A stretch of 40,742 bases of DNA. It comes from Clostridia bacterium. GTDB taxonomy: Bacteria; Bacillota; Clostridia; Oscillospirales; Acutalibacteraceae. Positions 1-28,092 of this stretch are shown here, one piece after another. The notes below the pieces were generated by a model. It was not told where the DNA came from, did not search any database, and was given only the letters and a program-made list of their open reading frames with translations. The position numbers were made by a program, and so were the translations under genes. Every line of letters starts with the position of its first letter. Position 1 is the stretch's first letter. The stretch is from positions 1-40,742 of the forward strand of contig JAKSPN010000003.1 of NCBI GenBank assembly GCA_024404755.1. Direction: 5' to 3'.

Positions 1-974
1 TCGCTCATCGGGAATTTCTCATACACGGCATCGGGGTCGTAAATGAGGTCGCCGGTGGCGAAATAATGCGCGGTCAACACCCATTCTTCGCCGGGGAACG
101 GCGCGGAATAGGACATCCACGAGCCGGTAACGGACAACTCTTTGCGGTTGAGATTTTCCCATTCCAGCGGCTCGAAGGTGACGGGTTTGGACGGCGTGCC
201 GATATAGCAGACGTGGGCTTTGTTCGCCGCCAAATCCATCGCCATTTTGATGGTGTCGGGCACGCCGCAGGTCTCGAACACGTAGTCGAAACCGTTGCCG
301 TCGGTCAGCGCCATCGCTTGCTCGCGGTAATCCTCGTCGAGCGTGCAGATACCGTCGGTCGCGCCGCAGCGTTTGCAGAAATCGAGGCGGTCTTTGTTGA
401 TATCAAACACGACGAGTTGCCGTGCGCCGAAAATCTTTGCCCATTGCATCGTAAAGAAGCCGATGGTGCCGCCGCCGATAACTGCCACGCGCTTGCCGCC
501 CGTGTAGTCCGCGAGGCGGACACCGTGCAGTCCCACGGTGCAGGGCTCGAACAGCGCGCCTTGCTCAAAAGAAAGGGCTTGGTCGATTTTCACGGCGTTT
601 TTCTCCGGCAACACGACGTAATCGGCAAACGCGCCTTGCACCCGCGAGCCGACGAAACTATACTGTTTGCATTGGGAATAGTTGCCGTGGGCGCAGTCGG
701 GGCAGTTCATACAGGGGAGCAGGGGAGCGCCCGCCACGTGGTCGCCGACGGCGAATTTGGTAACGCCTTCGCCGACTTCCACGACGTAGCCGGAAAACTC
801 GTGACCGAGCACCAGCGGGAATTTTTTCACTTTGCCTTGCAACACACGGGGAATATCCGACCCGCAGATGCCCGCCGCCATCACGCGTACTTTAATCGTG
901 CCGGGGAGGGTTGCGGGGGTTTCGTATTCCTCGTAACGGATATCTTCGATACCGTGTAAAACCGCTGCTTTCAT
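1..974 (-). CDS. GatD-like zinc-dependent polyol-phosphate dehydrogenase (3' end cut by window edge)
   Basis: Medium-chain zinc dehydrogenase of the galactitol-1-phosphate 5-dehydrogenase/TarJ type, which interconverts a ketose phosphate and a polyol phosphate with NAD(P)H. Translation of the minus strand from ATG at 974 gives 324 codons; about 25 C-terminal residues are missing compared with the usual ~350. The catalytic-zinc motif CGSD lies near residue 37, followed by GHEFSG. The structural zinc site has four cysteines spaced C-x2-C-x2-C-x7-C (LLPCMNCPDC, then GNYSQC), and the Rossmann motif is GGGTIG. The segment SWMSYSAPFPGEEW resembles E. coli GatD. A ribosome site (AAGGAG) precedes the start, 12 bases after the GatZ-like gene, so it belongs to the LicD operon. 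Family assignment is firm; substrate and direction are inferred. In this setting the reductive, TarJ-like direction is plausible. Confidence 0.88.
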   Translation of the reverse strand, partial: MKAAVLHGIEDIRYEEYETPATLPGTIKVRVMAAGICGSDIPRVLQGKVKKFPLVLGHEFSGYVVEVGEGVTKFAVGDHVAGAPLLPCMNCPDCAHGNYSQCKQYSFVGSRVQGAFADYVVLPEKNAVKIDQALSFEQGALFEPCTVGLHGVRLADYTGGKRVAVIGGGTIGFFTMQWAKIFGARQLVVFDINKDRLDFCKRCGATDGICTLDEDYREQAMALTDGNGFDYVFETCGVPDTIKMAMDLAANKAHVCYIGTPSKPVTFEPLEWENLNRKELSVTGSWMSYSAPFPGEEWVLTAHYFATGDLIYDPDAVYEKFPMS

Positions 975-986
975 AGTGATGTCTCC

Positions 987-2324
987 TTATCCAATCGAGA
1001 AACCGCCGAACATATAGTTGACCTTGGCGGCGTAGTTATAATCCTCAACCATAGCGACAATGCTGTATTTCGCGAGGTCGCGGGCTTTCGGGGAAAGCGA
1101 GCCGTCCCGCACTTTTTGGTACTGCAACGGCATATACTGGTGCAAAATGCCGGTGGGGATGGTGACCTCGTCGAGGTTCTTAAACAGTTTGTTCATCGCG
1201 TTTTCCACGTCCGGAAGCGCGGTGTAATAGCGACTGCGGTCCGAGAATCCGTAGCGCCGCTGAATCGCCACGCTGTTTTCGTCACCTTTGTAGTACTTCT
1301 TCCAGTAAGTGGGGTCTTCGAGCATCTTGGCTTCGAGGATTTCGCGGTAGTGGGAGCGTTTGCTCTCGTCGGCAATCAGTTCATCCTCCATCATCGCAAG
1401 GGCGAAAAGCGCCTCGCGCATGGCATAGGTGAGGGCGGGGCCGACTTTGATAATCGCGATGCCGTCTTCCACCATTTCTTTCAGTTTTTTCGGGGACTGA
1501 TAGTCGGTGGAGTGACCCTCGAACACAATGTCGGGGTATTTCTTTAAGCTCTGGCACAGTTTGGTCGCTTCCACGCGGTCATACGCGTGCACCGACAGGT
1601 TGCCGAACTCCACGCCCGGCTGTACCACGATGGCGATGATGTGTTGGAACGCATCGGCGAGTCCGTACTGCGCAAACACTTTATGATAGGCGACGAGGGT
1701 ACGCTCGAAATCTTCCGGACGGGTGACTTCCACGTCGTCTTCTTTCTTTTGGTTGCCGCCGGGAATCGGCACTTCGCTTCCGATAACGAAAACGGGGTGC
1801 ATCTCGTCGGGGTTGCGCTCGAGAAGTTTTTGATACTCTTCCTCGCACGCTTTGTAAAGCCGCGCGCCGCGCTCGGCAATCGTTTCGTCCGAGAGGCGCT
1901 CGTCCACCGGATCGTCACCGAGTTTCATACTGGTGTCGAGGTGGATTTTTTTATAGCCCGCCGCGACCGACAACCGCACGAGCGTTTCGGCGTTGTCCAT
2001 CGCTTCGGCGGCGGGTTTATCCGCCCACGGCAGGGGACCCAAGTGGTCGCCGCCGATGAGGATTTTATCGTGGGAGAAGCCGATGCGGTCGGCAATCTGG
2101 TACACGTAGTCGCAAAAATCTTTCGGCTGCATCCGCATATAGCCGCCGTTTTGGTTGACCTGGTTGGAGGTCGCCTCAATCACGACGCGCTCGTCAAAGC
2201 GCTGCGCCTGCTCCAAAATGGCCTCGATGACCAGTTTGTTCGCAGAGCAGAACGACGGGATGCCGCAGTGGATACCGAGTTTGCGTTTCGTGACCATTTC
2301 ACGAAGCGGGTTTTGTTCGGGCAT
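987..2324 (-). CDS. GatZ/KbaZ-family protein (tagatose-bisphosphate aldolase subunit or tagatose-6-P 4-epimerase)
   Basis: A 445-residue protein of the GatZ/KbaZ/AgaZ family (COG4573). In E. coli these are non-catalytic subunits that stabilise the class II tagatose-1,6-bisphosphate aldolase GatY/KbaY. From memory, an Agrobacterium member has been described as a free-standing D-tagatose-6-phosphate 4-epimerase. Recognisable family segments are GIHCGIPSFCSANKLVIEA near residue 20, GGDHLGPLPW near residue 90 and LDTSMKLGDDP near residue 130. No GatY/KbaY partner is present in the window, although one could lie beyond position 1. ATG start with a strong AAGGAGGG ribosome site. It sits between the cytidylyltransferase (12 bases upstream) and the GatD-like gene (12 bases downstream), the tight spacing of one operon. 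If it is an epimerase, it would supply tagatose-6-phosphate from fructose-6-phosphate to the dehydrogenase; that role is inference. Confidence 0.88.
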   Translation of the reverse strand: MPEQNPLREMVTKRKLGIHCGIPSFCSANKLVIEAILEQAQRFDERVVIEATSNQVNQNGGYMRMQPKDFCDYVYQIADRIGFSHDKILIGGDHLGPLPWADKPAAEAMDNAETLVRLSVAAGYKKIHLDTSMKLGDDPVDERLSDETIAERGARLYKACEEEYQKLLERNPDEMHPVFVIGSEVPIPGGNQKKEDDVEVTRPEDFERTLVAYHKVFAQYGLADAFQHIIAIVVQPGVEFGNLSVHAYDRVEATKLCQSLKKYPDIVFEGHSTDYQSPKKLKEMVEDGIAIIKVGPALTYAMREALFALAMMEDELIADESKRSHYREILEAKMLEDPTYWKKYYKGDENSVAIQRRYGFSDRSRYYTALPDVENAMNKLFKNLDEVTIPTGILHQYMPLQYQKVRDGSLSPKARDLAKYSIVAMVEDYNYAAKVNYMFGGFSIG

Positions 2325-2336
2325 AAAACACCCTCC

Positions 2337-3044
2337 TTACTCTTCAAAGAAATAAGTATGTACAAGTTTCTTAAAGACTTCCATATCGCCGGGGTAGGTG
2401 ATTTTCAGGTTGATAACCGAGGCGGGAACGACCACCATCGGGATGTTGTGCGCGAGCGCAATCGCGCCGGCGGAGGTCATCGCTTCGAGTTCCTCTTTGG
2501 AGGCCTCGCTGTAAATTTTATAAATGTCGCCGAAGCGGAACGCTTCGGGGGACGCGCCGGACACAATTTCCTGGCGCGGCACGACTTGTTCGAGCATACA
2601 GGTTTCGGCGTTCATACGGTAGACGGTGTCGTACTGCCGCTGACCGAGGGTTGCGCCGCCGTATTTCTTCACGCCCTCGATAACGCCCTTGGTGCCTTCC
2701 ACGTCCACGTAGGGGTGGGTCGCATCGCAAAGGAGTACCACGTCGTCGTGCGCCGCAATGTCTTTCACGGCGGACAGACCGTTGAGCACCGATTCCGAGC
2801 GCGTATCGCCGCCCTTGACGATGTGGGTGAGTTTGTCGATGTGGAATTTTTCTTTCCACTCTTCCACGTAGTCGAGCCAGTCTTTGTGGGAGACCACGAC
2901 GATTTTGTCAATCTCGTCCATTTTGTTGTAGCCGCGCAGGATATACGCGAACACCGGCACGTCGTCAATCAGCGTGTACTGTTTCGGGCGGGAAGCACCG
3001 AAACGGGTGCCGCTGCCGCCCATCATCAAAAACAGAATGTTCAT
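2337..3044 (-). CDS. IspD/TarI-family cytidylyltransferase
   Basis: A 235-residue CTP:alditol/erythritol-phosphate cytidylyltransferase. The CTP-binding loop MMGGSGTRFG is at residues 7-16, with PKQY at about 20-23. The usual HDAARP position reads CDATHPYV. The C-terminal NLKITYPGDMEVF matches the NIKIT..eD motif of IspD/TarI. The family moves CMP onto methylerythritol-4-P (IspD) or ribitol-5-P (TarI). In typical IspD a QTPQ.F motif occupies the place where this protein has SGASPEAFRF, which points away from a standard isoprenoid enzyme. The neighbours (a LicD transferase upstream, polyol-phosphate genes downstream) also favour making a CDP-polyol for a glycan. ATG start preceded by GGAGG. 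The isoprenoid gene dxr lies about 21 kb away in another operon. An IspD role cannot be excluded without seeing the rest of the genome. Confidence 0.85.
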   Translation of the reverse strand: MNILFLMMGGSGTRFGASRPKQYTLIDDVPVFAYILRGYNKMDEIDKIVVVSHKDWLDYVEEWKEKFHIDKLTHIVKGGDTRSESVLNGLSAVKDIAAHDDVVLLCDATHPYVDVEGTKGVIEGVKKYGGATLGQRQYDTVYRMNAETCMLEQVVPRQEIVSGASPEAFRFGDIYKIYSEASKEELEAMTSAGAIALAHNIPMVVVPASVINLKITYPGDMEVFKKLVHTYFFEE

Positions 3045-3072
3045 AAGAAACCTCCGAAAACTTCGATGAAAA

Positions 3073-4716
3073 TCAGTTGTCTTTTACTTCGGGAATATCC
3101 GCCGACCAACGAATGAGGTCGTGGCCGAGTTGCTGGTGAAGCGGCGGCAAACTCATAAAGTCGTGATACTGCATTTCGAGGAAAACCTCCGGTTTGGCGG
3201 GGATTTTCGCCGACACGCCCTCAAACGAGATGTCCTGATAGGGGAGCAGGTCGTCGAGGTTTACGTAGGTGTAGGTCGGCACGAAACTCGCCACCGTTTG
3301 CAGCCCGCGCTCTTTCGCAACGGCGTTATAGCGGGTGGCAACGGAGATATATTTCTTTTGGGTTTTCTTGATGGAAACGAGGCGCCACAACTGACGGTGA
3401 GCGTGGGCGACGGTGCGCCACATCCAATCCTCGAACGTCTTGGGTTTCTCGTCGTAAACCGGCTCGGCAATCTGTTTGTTGCACGCCTTGTTGTGACGGC
3501 GGACACAGACGTTGACTTCCGCCAAGAAGTTCTTTTGCTCCTGCTCGTCGTCCGGCAGGAAGTCGAACGGGAACAAGTCGAGACAGATGCCTTTGTGGAA
3601 GTTGCGGTTTTCGTTGTATTCGGTGATATATTCCGTATCGTTCATGCGAATTTTCGAGAACAGATAGGGGATTTCGGGGTCGCTCTCGCGGGTTTGCAGG
3701 AAGAAGCGGTCGGACAGTTCCTTGCCGCCCTCGGCGAGGAAACGGTCATAATCCGCGCGAAGCATACCTACGTCGATATCGTCGTCCCACGGGATAAAGC
3801 CGCCGTGACGGACGTAGCCGAGCATCGAGCCGCCGCAGATAAAATAGCCGATGTCGAGTTTGCGGCAGATGCGGTCGAATTCTTCGAGCAACAACAAGTC
3901 CACTTTTTGGATGGTTTTGATTTGTTTTTCCAGTTCGGGGGTGAGGGTCGCCGTCCACGGCGAAAAGTCGTTCGGGCAGGGGAGTTCCATGCCGTTAAAC
4001 GGGATTTTTTGCAGCGGGAACAGTTGATGCTCCCAGCAAAGTTCGCTTTTCGCAAACACCACGCGCATAATGCGGTGGGCATCTTCGGAGTGGTTGTATT
4101 TTTGGGCGATGCGCTGAACGCGCTCGTATTCTTTGCGGGGAGAGCGCCAGCCGTAAAGCAGTTTTTTCGCCGCGAATTTTAAGAAGCTCTGTTTTGTGGA
4201 AGAATAACTGTGGCAGGAGCAGACGCGCGCATACCGCAGGTTGGCGCGTTTCATCCGGCGCAGGTGAGCGCAGTAGAGGTCGAAACTGTCCGGCAGGCGG
4301 TCAAACGGCGCGAGCAGAATCCAAAAATCCTGTTCCATCGACAGTTCGTCGCCCGCTTCCAAATCGCCGAGTTCCGCCCGCACGCCGAGGCGCACAAGAC
4401 GCTGGGGGATGTTGGTAAGCCCGATGTATTCGTCCAAAATAAGCCCGCGGCCTTCGGCTTCTTTGCGGAGGATGGCGAGCAGTTTCTCGTAATCTTCGCG
4501 CAACAGACCGATGTCGCCGGAAAGCGCATCCTGACCGGGGATAACGGCGTTATAGTGAACGGCACCGACCAGCGTGGGACCGTAGGCAAAATAGGAGAGC
4601 CCGTTTTCGGTACAAATCTCGTCGATGGCTTTGATGATTTTGGTTTTCGCCTCATTCAAAACGGAATCGTTATAGTGGATGAGACTTCCTTTTTGACAAT
4701 CAAGCGTGTACTTCAT
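3073..4716 (-). CDS. LicD-family phosphotransferase with two LicD-like domains
   Basis: LicD proteins (nucleotidyltransferase fold) transfer phosphocholine or other phospho-alcohols from a CDP-linked donor to cell-surface glycans. The C-terminal half carries a complete LicD core: ICGGSMLGYVRHGGF followed by the acidic IPWDDDIDVGM at about residues 305-320. The N-terminal half (about residues 25-90) repeats the same layout, with YGPTLVGAVHYNAVIPG and then LLREDYEKL, but the acidic triad is replaced by QDALSGD, so it is probably non-catalytic. The protein is soluble-looking. I chose the ATG at 4716 (547 residues), which has GAGGT about 10 bases upstream. The ATG at 4755 would leave only a few bases of leader after the promoter at 4766-4794. 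First gene of the operon that continues into the cytidylyltransferase, the GatZ-like and the GatD-like genes. Confidence 0.87.
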   Translation of the reverse strand: MKYTLDCQKGSLIHYNDSVLNEAKTKIIKAIDEICTENGLSYFAYGPTLVGAVHYNAVIPGQDALSGDIGLLREDYEKLLAILRKEAEGRGLILDEYIGLTNIPQRLVRLGVRAELGDLEAGDELSMEQDFWILLAPFDRLPDSFDLYCAHLRRMKRANLRYARVCSCHSYSSTKQSFLKFAAKKLLYGWRSPRKEYERVQRIAQKYNHSEDAHRIMRVVFAKSELCWEHQLFPLQKIPFNGMELPCPNDFSPWTATLTPELEKQIKTIQKVDLLLLEEFDRICRKLDIGYFICGGSMLGYVRHGGFIPWDDDIDVGMLRADYDRFLAEGGKELSDRFFLQTRESDPEIPYLFSKIRMNDTEYITEYNENRNFHKGICLDLFPFDFLPDDEQEQKNFLAEVNVCVRRHNKACNKQIAEPVYDEKPKTFEDWMWRTVAHAHRQLWRLVSIKKTQKKYISVATRYNAVAKERGLQTVASFVPTYTYVNLDDLLPYQDISFEGVSAKIPAKPEVFLEMQYHDFMSLPPLHQQLGHDLIRWSADIPEVKDN

Positions 4717-4765
4717 TTCTTTGTTTACCTCGCAGTATAGAACTTGGGTATCCATATATAGGTAA

Positions 4766-4794
4766 AGTATACTATATCCGACAGAAAATTACAA
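4766..4794 (-). promoter_or_regulatory. Sigma-A-type promoter of the LicD operon
   Basis: Read on the minus strand: -35 TTGTAA (4789-4794), 17-base spacer, -10 TATACT (4766-4771). It lies about 50 bases upstream of the preferred LicD start at 4716. No palindrome overlaps it. Confidence 0.72.
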
Positions 4795-4848: not shown

Positions 4849-4884
4849 AAAAACGCCTCATCCGAGGCGGGATGAGGCGTTTTT
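4849..4884 (-). terminator. Intrinsic terminator after the DUF1540 gene
   Basis: A 13-base inverted repeat (4849-4861 with 4872-4884, core ACGCCTCAT) with a 10-base loop. On the minus strand the stem ends in a T-run. It directly abuts the DUF1540 stop codon and separates that gene from the LicD promoter. Confidence 0.85.
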
Positions 4885-27834: not shown

Positions 27835-28092
27835 TTGTAAACACGATGAAGAAGAGAGTACGTTCGTTACGTCCCCCGAAAGAGAGAATCGTCACCGGCT
27901 GAAAGCGATTTGAGGGAACGCGAGCCGAAGTTCACTTTGGAGTGGCGCGGCAGAAGCCCGATTACGGGTGTGTAGGTCGCGACGGCAACGCCGTTATCGG
28001 GTTACGAGTGTTTGCGCCTTTGCGCAAAAACCGGGGTGGTACCGCGGAGTTTCGACCTTCGTCCCCTTTTTGAGGGGTCGAGGGCTTTTTTT
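27835..28092 (+). ncRNA. T-box leader, specifier TTC (Phe)
   Basis: A tRNA-Phe-sensing leader. Stem I contains the AGAGTA loop-E motif (27852-27857) and the GAAG-TTC-A specifier loop with TTC at 27932-27934. The T-box sequence GGGTGGTACCGCGG is at 28034-28047. The terminator pairs 28056-28067 with 28073-28084 (one mismatch and one wobble) and is followed by seven T. Specifier and downstream genes (pheS, pheT) agree. It reads through when tRNA-Phe is uncharged. Confidence 0.95.

Follow-up and report, generated by a model that had tools for sequence, protein, structure and literature searches.

We propose that a four-gene cluster at one end of a 40,742-nucleotide stretch of DNA (the window) from a Clostridia bacterium of the family Acutalibacteraceae probably serves the biosynthesis of a hexitol activated with cytidine diphosphate (CDP), most likely CDP-galactitol, for a surface glycan. 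The window is one whole contig (C23) of a metagenome-assembled genome (G000; 1.3 Mb, 98% complete), and the cluster, read 5′ to 3′ on the minus strand, encodes a LicD protein, a cytidylyltransferase (CT), a GatZ protein, and a GatD-like dehydrogenase. All four genes are present in the order given by a first-pass annotation of the window, each with matches to its family, and the gaps of 28, 12, and 12 bp between them make for an operon-like arrangement. We refer to the CT, GatZ, and GatD genes, here and in other genomes, as the cassette.

In the proposed pathway, GatZ would epimerise fructose-6-phosphate at C4 to tagatose-6-phosphate, GatD, acting in the reductive direction with NADH, would convert this to galactitol-1-phosphate, and the CT would combine galactitol-1-phosphate with cytidine triphosphate (CTP) to give CDP-galactitol. 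The LicD protein with its tandem domains, or elsewhere a TagF-type (Glyphos_transf) enzyme, would then transfer galactitol-phosphate to a surface glycan. These steps rest on different grounds: the activity of the GatZ family is published and the relevant residues are conserved, the direction proposed for GatD is the reverse of the known family reaction, the CT substrate is suggested by linkage, and the transferase and its acceptor by protein family. The first-pass annotation had already joined the steps into one pathway, a reading that gains support from linkage, the lack of GatY and of the galactitol phosphotransferase system (PTS), the distinct CT, and the GatZ residues, although the CT substrate is still deduced.

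The window CT belongs to the IspD/TarI superfamily (PF01128, 1.7e-29), and its closest solved structures are TarI-type ribitol-5-phosphate CTs. The residues of the CTP site are retained (GG-x-G-x-R, PKQ, and the NLKIT lysine), and cytidylyl transfer itself is predicted. The protein nevertheless scores below the curated cut-offs for both ispD (126.5 vs 181.3 bits) and ribitol-5-phosphate CT (122.8 vs 166), and falls outside the TarI clade. Three PF01128 proteins are encoded in the window genome, one of which (C13:8640-9347) exceeds the ispD cut-off (193.9 vs 181.3), while another (C13:10530-11279), paired with a PF01370 reductase, exceeds that for ribitol-5-phosphate CT (169.7 vs 166). Another gene thus fills the role of IspD, and the objection that the first-pass annotation had raised against its own pathway, that the CT might be the only IspD of the genome, fails.

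Alignment of the cassette CTs with other members of the superfamily revealed two local signatures. DATHP is found at positions 107-111 in all six cassette CTs of the family, where 13 of 13 other IspD/TarI rows aligned have D-x-x-R-P, and SPE stands at positions 165-167, where most other rows have TPQ. The arginine missing from the cassette CTs is presumably Arg109 of E. coli IspD, a substrate contact, which we treat as a lead only. The cassette CTs form one clade together with a CT from an E. coli plasmid (support 100/100, with the E. coli CT on a long branch). By sequence, the cassette CTs are a distinct IspD/TarI subfamily with the signature DxTHP accompanied by SPE.

Other CT loci were seen in two of the genomes that carry the cassette. 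On contig C13 of the window genome (L008 8640-12380), the IspD gene lies near the CT and PF01370 reductase pair, which is of the kind reported for CDP-mannitol and CDP-glucitol, and the surrounding genes resemble CDP-glycerol-type phosphotransferases; a second CDP-alditol is likely to be made from this pair. Contig C83 of a related genome, G074 (L061), encodes a canonical TarI (379 bits) adjoining a TarJ-like dehydrogenase, and the same locus includes the ATPase of an ABC transporter and a LicD that is extended at its N-terminus by a long additional region. Because G074 has this TarI/TarJ pair with LicD in addition to the cassette, the cassette would not be its ribitol route.

To place the cassette in a wider context, we searched genomes of the family, class, and phylum. 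A true GatZ occurs in five of 200 family genomes, and the same five carry a cassette CT; their CT, GatZ, and GatD follow one order and share 54-68% identity with their window counterparts. This co-occurrence exceeds chance (hypergeometric 4e-10, an illustrative value that ignores kinship). Of 398 family genomes searched with a CT profile, six, belonging to four genera, gave matches, each at ≤1e-130 and with nothing further at 1e-50; GatZ and GatD adjoin the CT in every one of them (the sixth being G959). The check that the first-pass annotation had named for its pathway, conserved co-occurrence of the families in the absence of gatY and gatABC, therefore bears it out for CT, GatZ, and GatD in these six genomes. 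When the CT search was extended to 398 genomes spread across the phylum, the window genome alone matched. No relative was recovered from the viral contigs searched with the CT alignment, and phage records gave distant CTs only (≤27% identity among the matches listed). Upstream of the cassette in genus g73 lie genes for a conserved DUF2804 protein and a CAP-domain protein (L021 5609-10574, L022 3807-8774, L070 3372-6339), joined in G184 and G073 by one for a serine-hydrolase-like protein.

Elsewhere in the class, GatZ genes lie beside GatD together with an FGGY kinase, RbsD/FucU-like, or aldo-keto reductase gene, or beside class II aldolase or PTS/AgaS-type genes, and none of them has a cassette CT within 1.5 kb on either side. 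Clostridial clusters at L037-L040, L042, L043, and L054 combine GatD and GatZ with, variously, the FGGY kinase, RbsD/FucU-like, and aldo-keto reductase genes and have no GatY in the stretch read; they apparently represent a catabolic route in which a kinase supplies the substrate of the GatD-GatZ pair. A GatZ protein search of genome contigs recovered two loci, neither with the CT, in which GatZ is near DeoR, FruK-like, and PTS genes (L017) or near SIS and PTS genes (L018). Weak GatZ matches at L014-L016 and L050-L053 had about 25% identity or were short fragments, belong to another subfamily or to noise, and were left out of all counts.

The window GatZ matches PF08013 at 3.7e-171 (570 bits) and is the sole GatZ of its genome. 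E. coli GatZ and KbaZ have been reported to turn fructose-6-phosphate into tagatose-6-phosphate, with seven active-site residues derived from modelling in the same paper (PMC11907403), so that the epimerase activity invoked in the first-pass annotation for this family is published, even for the E. coli proteins. The E. coli GatZ residues Cys20, Glu44, Asp87, His88, Glu171, His257, and Lys279 align with C25, E49, D92, H93, E183, H270, and K292 of the window GatZ (residue numbers are those of P0002, beginning at residue 2), and all seven are invariant across five cassette GatZs. We propose that the window GatZ is a tagatose-6-phosphate/fructose-6-phosphate 4-epimerase.

Enzymes of the GatD family oxidise galactitol-1-phosphate to tagatose-6-phosphate. 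Galactitol-1-phosphate 5-dehydrogenase is the best NCBIfam model for the window GatD, at 288.9 bits against a cut-off of 550 for a protein whose C-terminus is missing, and the complete copy of G074 scores 315.0 on the same model. The best match in the PDB is E. coli GatD (4a2c, 9e-71). Relative to GatD of an E. coli gat operon, the catalytic zinc ligands C37, H58, and E143 and the structural cysteines C88, C91, C94, and C102 are conserved, and the GSWM motif followed by the PG-x-(E/D)-W stretch is retained wherever the sequence is complete. An Asp follows the second Rossmann-fold strand, from which we infer an enzyme of the NADH type. We propose that the window GatD is a tagatose-6-phosphate reductase yielding galactitol-1-phosphate.

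As the first-pass annotation had observed for the window, the rest of the genome also appears to be without the partners needed for galactitol breakdown: we looked for GatY and galactitol PTS genes elsewhere in the window genome and found neither. The galactitol PTS permease EIIC-GAT (PF03611) was absent from the five cassette genomes searched for it, with a positive E. coli control. Each of these five genomes has one class II aldolase, and that of the window genome exceeds the Fba equivalog cut-off (390.6 vs 343.05) and falls far short of the one for tagatose-bisphosphate aldolase (215.7 vs 443.55). Since the only class II aldolase of the genome scores as Fba, the window GatZ has no GatY partner.

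A search of plasmids with the CT returned one match clearly above the rest, encoded at 36.9% identity by a plasmid of E. coli. This CT is present in only two E. coli records (LR890578.1 and NZ_JBTZOT010000002.1), the copy of the second isolate being 99.6% identical. On the plasmid, the CT gene shares 4 bp with that of a CDP-glycerol-type phosphotransferase (PF04464); gatZ, gatY, and gatD follow. The locus of the second isolate is annotated as CDP-glycerol glycerophosphotransferase, methylerythritol phosphate (MEP) cytidylyltransferase, GatZ, class II aldolase, and zinc dehydrogenase, with more CDP-glycerol transferase and ABC-transporter permease fragments nearby. The E. coli CT carries DVTHP and SPE and is the one CT from outside the family that joins the cassette clade; its RefSeq label as an MEP cytidylyltransferase (L073 14056-14697, NZ_JBTZOT010000002.1) looks like a mis-annotation.

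The accompanying E. coli GatZ and GatD have a different ancestry from those of the Clostridia. They are 86.9% and 85.9% identical, respectively, to proteins of a gat operon that lies on a plasmid and includes galactitol PTS genes, and they branch with gat-operon proteins, apart from the clostridial ones (100/100). The E. coli GatZ is above its equivalog cut-off (774.6 vs 579), and GatD reaches 548.6 against 550. By this branching, GatZ and GatD from two sources have been paired with the CT subfamily, the E. coli cassette having apparently been assembled separately, a second time, and it would be difficult to account for such pairing if the CT did not depend on the product of GatZ and GatD. With slightly less assurance than for the window cluster itself, we think it likely that the DxTHP subfamily makes CDP-galactitol from fructose-6-phosphate via tagatose-6-phosphate, that the combination was assembled at least twice, and that it builds galactitol-phosphate surface polymers.

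The transferase step appears to be more variable. In the window LicD protein, PF04991 matches two stretches (1.3e-55); the second domain retains WDDDID, while in the first (window 3964-4614), which is degenerate, the DDDID motif is gone. The protein may accordingly be a fusion of one catalytic and one non-catalytic unit. LicD adjoins the cassette in the window genome, G074, and G085. In three g73 cassette genomes no LicD was detected, and a TagF-type Glyphos_transf gene is found on another contig with an acyltransferase gene directly after it. The pairing with LicD proposed in the first-pass annotation is thus seen in three genomes but is not obligate, with TagF-type genes in its place in three others and a TagF-type enzyme encoded at the E. 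coli locus as well. The g73 acyltransferase is homologous to that encoded directly after GatD in G074 and G085, an Acyl_transf_3 membrane protein (L020 7520-8611 and L019 3892-4908), and the location of these genes beside both GatD and TagF-type genes suggests that the putative polymer is acylated. A similar-looking Acyl_transf_3-like protein is also encoded near another CT in G047 (L027).

Parts of the proposed pathway resemble several characterised systems. The TarI/TarJ route (Bcs1-type; wall teichoic acid and the capsule of Haemophilus influenzae type b) likewise employs a zinc dehydrogenase of the medium-chain dehydrogenase/reductase (MDR) type to reduce a ketose phosphate and an IspD-family CT to activate the alditol phosphate, and its product CDP-ribitol is used by LicD or TagF-type enzymes, as we propose for the cassette. 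The cassette differs in its added GatZ epimerase step, in having hexitol rather than pentitol enzymes, with GatD instead of TarJ, and in a CT that carries DATHP where TarI has DAVRP or DSVRP. LicD and fukutin-type CDP-alditol phosphotransferases, among which FKTN and FKRP reportedly use CDP-ribitol, share the LicD domain with DDDID; the cassette LicD departs from them in its tandem structure with a degenerate first domain and in its putative donor. The E. coli gatYZABCD operon has the GatZ and GatD families in common with the cassette, which by contrast includes no GatY or galactitol PTS and would run in the reverse direction, toward the alditol phosphate. The tagatose-6-phosphate 4-epimerases of Agrobacterium and Sinorhizobium, together with E. 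coli GatZ and KbaZ, belong to the same GatZ family and have the conserved Zn/Asp site (PMC11907403), but serve catabolism or engineered tagatose production, whereas the cassette gatZ is linked to nucleotide activation. Lastly, Mnp1/Mnp2 of S. pneumoniae 35A (CDP-D-mannitol) and HS5.18/HS5.17 of C. jejuni (CDP-6-D-glucitol) also pair an IspD-family CT with a reductase, producing CDP-hexitols for capsule from fructose-6-phosphate by cytidylyl transfer and subsequent reduction of CDP-fructose by a short-chain dehydrogenase/reductase (SDR; PF01370) (PMC10918830). The cassette has a C4 epimerase in addition, and its reductase is an MDR (PF08240/PF00107) rather than PF01370.

Several observations weigh against synthesis of CDP-galactitol by the proposed route. 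The cassette GatDs are about as close to clostridial GatDs of apparently catabolic clusters (57-60%) as to one another, and for this reason the direction of the reaction cannot be read from GatD sequence by itself. The E. coli cluster still has gatY, and IS1 copies separate gatZ from the CT gene on one side and from gatY on the other, so its present gene order may be partly due to insertion sequence elements. In the open-access literature we found no CDP-galactitol, no galactitol-1-phosphate in connection with a cytidylyltransferase, and no galactitol-phosphate polymer, by a term search that also missed the known CDP-mannitol; this silence can be read as novelty but just as well as a lack of support. 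Two matches for galactitol in polymers proved to concern derivatives from methylation analysis rather than alditols of a polymer. Nor are CDP-hexitols new as a kind, since CDP-mannitol and CDP-6-glucitol, like CDP-ribitol, are already known (PMC10918830 for the two hexitols). Finally, the known CDP-hexitol routes place cytidylyl transfer before reduction (PMC10918830).

This last precedent underlies the main rival to our proposal, in which the CT makes CDP-6-D-tagatose from tagatose-6-phosphate for subsequent reduction to CDP-galactitol by GatD, given that in both characterised routes, pneumococcal CDP-mannitol and Campylobacter CDP-glucitol, an IspD-family CT acts first on the ketose phosphate fructose-6-phosphate (PMC10918830). 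The departure of the cassette CT from the alditol-phosphate enzyme TarI at DATHP and SPE also fits such an order. However, the known routes use an SDR, whereas the closest characterised relatives of the GatD-type MDR act on galactitol-1-phosphate, and the E. coli partner shares 86% identity with a protein annotated as galactitol-1-phosphate dehydrogenase; on account of the reductase type we favour reduction before cytidylyl transfer and regard the reversed order as unlikely. To much the same degree we doubt that GatZ and GatD have drifted in substrate or stereochemistry so that the product is another CDP-alditol (for example CDP-altritol, CDP-talitol, or CDP-mannitol). Cassette GatZ and GatD do fall under the curated equivalog cut-offs (GatD being incomplete), and paralogues in other Clostridia adjoin FGGY kinases of unknown substrate, but in the E. 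coli copy, with a CT of the same clade, GatZ is above the cut-off and GatD within 2 bits of it, and the GatZ active-site residues and, where the sequence extends far enough, both GatD motifs are retained.

It is very improbable that the cluster serves galactitol or tagatose breakdown with CT and LicD as chance neighbours. GatD-GatZ pairs without GatY do exist in apparently catabolic clusters of the same class, yet the five cassette genomes searched have no galactitol PTS, no sugar kinase lies beside the cassettes in the neighbourhoods read, the spacing with CT and LicD is tight, and linkage with a cassette CT holds in seven of seven known cases with gat genes from two sources. We give still less credence to the CT being a second IspD of the MEP pathway or a TarI for CDP-ribitol with GatZ and GatD incidental, despite its place in the Pfam IspD family and the RefSeq label of the E. 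coli copy. Separate genes of the window genome exceed the ispD and ribitol-5-phosphate CT cut-offs and G074 has a canonical TarI, while the cassette CT fails both cut-offs and is without the D-x-x-R-P arginine common to all IspD/TarI rows aligned.

The features of the locus are listed in Table 1. Base 1 of the window is the contig end, and nothing can be read to its left. The gene after GatD in G085 and G074 is the acyltransferase described above, but no homologue of it was found in the window genome at E 1e-10, and the continuation of the cluster was not located. Upstream, a strong terminator and, just downstream of it, a promoter-like site set the cluster apart, as predicted elements, from the preceding gene. 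For the single promoter assigned to the cluster by the first-pass annotation, this site is a well-placed candidate, but sites of this kind are no more frequent than chance would give (2 found vs 2.4 expected). For LicD, the ATG at 4716 is the more likely start, since AGGTAA lies upstream of it and the G074 orthologue (MKPIT...) begins there, while a start at 4755 would leave just some 10 bp to the -10 box. Elsewhere in the window, a T-box leader at 27837-28069 (Rfam RF00230, 107.8 bits) precedes plus-strand frames of 345 and 796 amino acids, whose sizes would fit pheST.

Table 1 Features of the cluster and its upstream border in the window
Feature	Position (strand)	Length	Family or basis	Remarks
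GatD-like zinc dehydrogenase	3..974 (-)	324 amino acids	PF08240/PF00107	C-terminus lost at contig end
GatZ-family protein	987..2324 (-)	445 amino acids	PF08013	
IspD/TarI-family cytidylyltransferase	2337..3044 (-)	235 amino acids	PF01128	
LicD-family phosphotransferase	3073..4716 (-)	547 amino acids	PF04991	Two tandem LicD domains; open frame up to 4755
Promoter-like site	4766..4794 (-)		Consensus scan, 9/12 matches	TTGTAA-17-TATACT, upstream of cluster
Intrinsic terminator of preceding gene	4849..4884 (-)		15-pair stem, 7 G-C pairs	T-rich tail after the stem

If the proposed pathway is correct, CDP-galactitol would be a new activated alditol in bacterial cell-surface chemistry, and GatZ proteins, which databases label as an aldolase subunit, would acquire a biosynthetic role that accounts for some of the GatZ and GatD genes occurring without galactitol catabolism. 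The combined DxTHP and SPE signature would allow mis-annotated MEP cytidylyltransferases to be corrected. A galactitol-phosphate polymer would then be predicted for the genomes that carry the cassette, including for the capsule-like locus on the E. coli plasmid.

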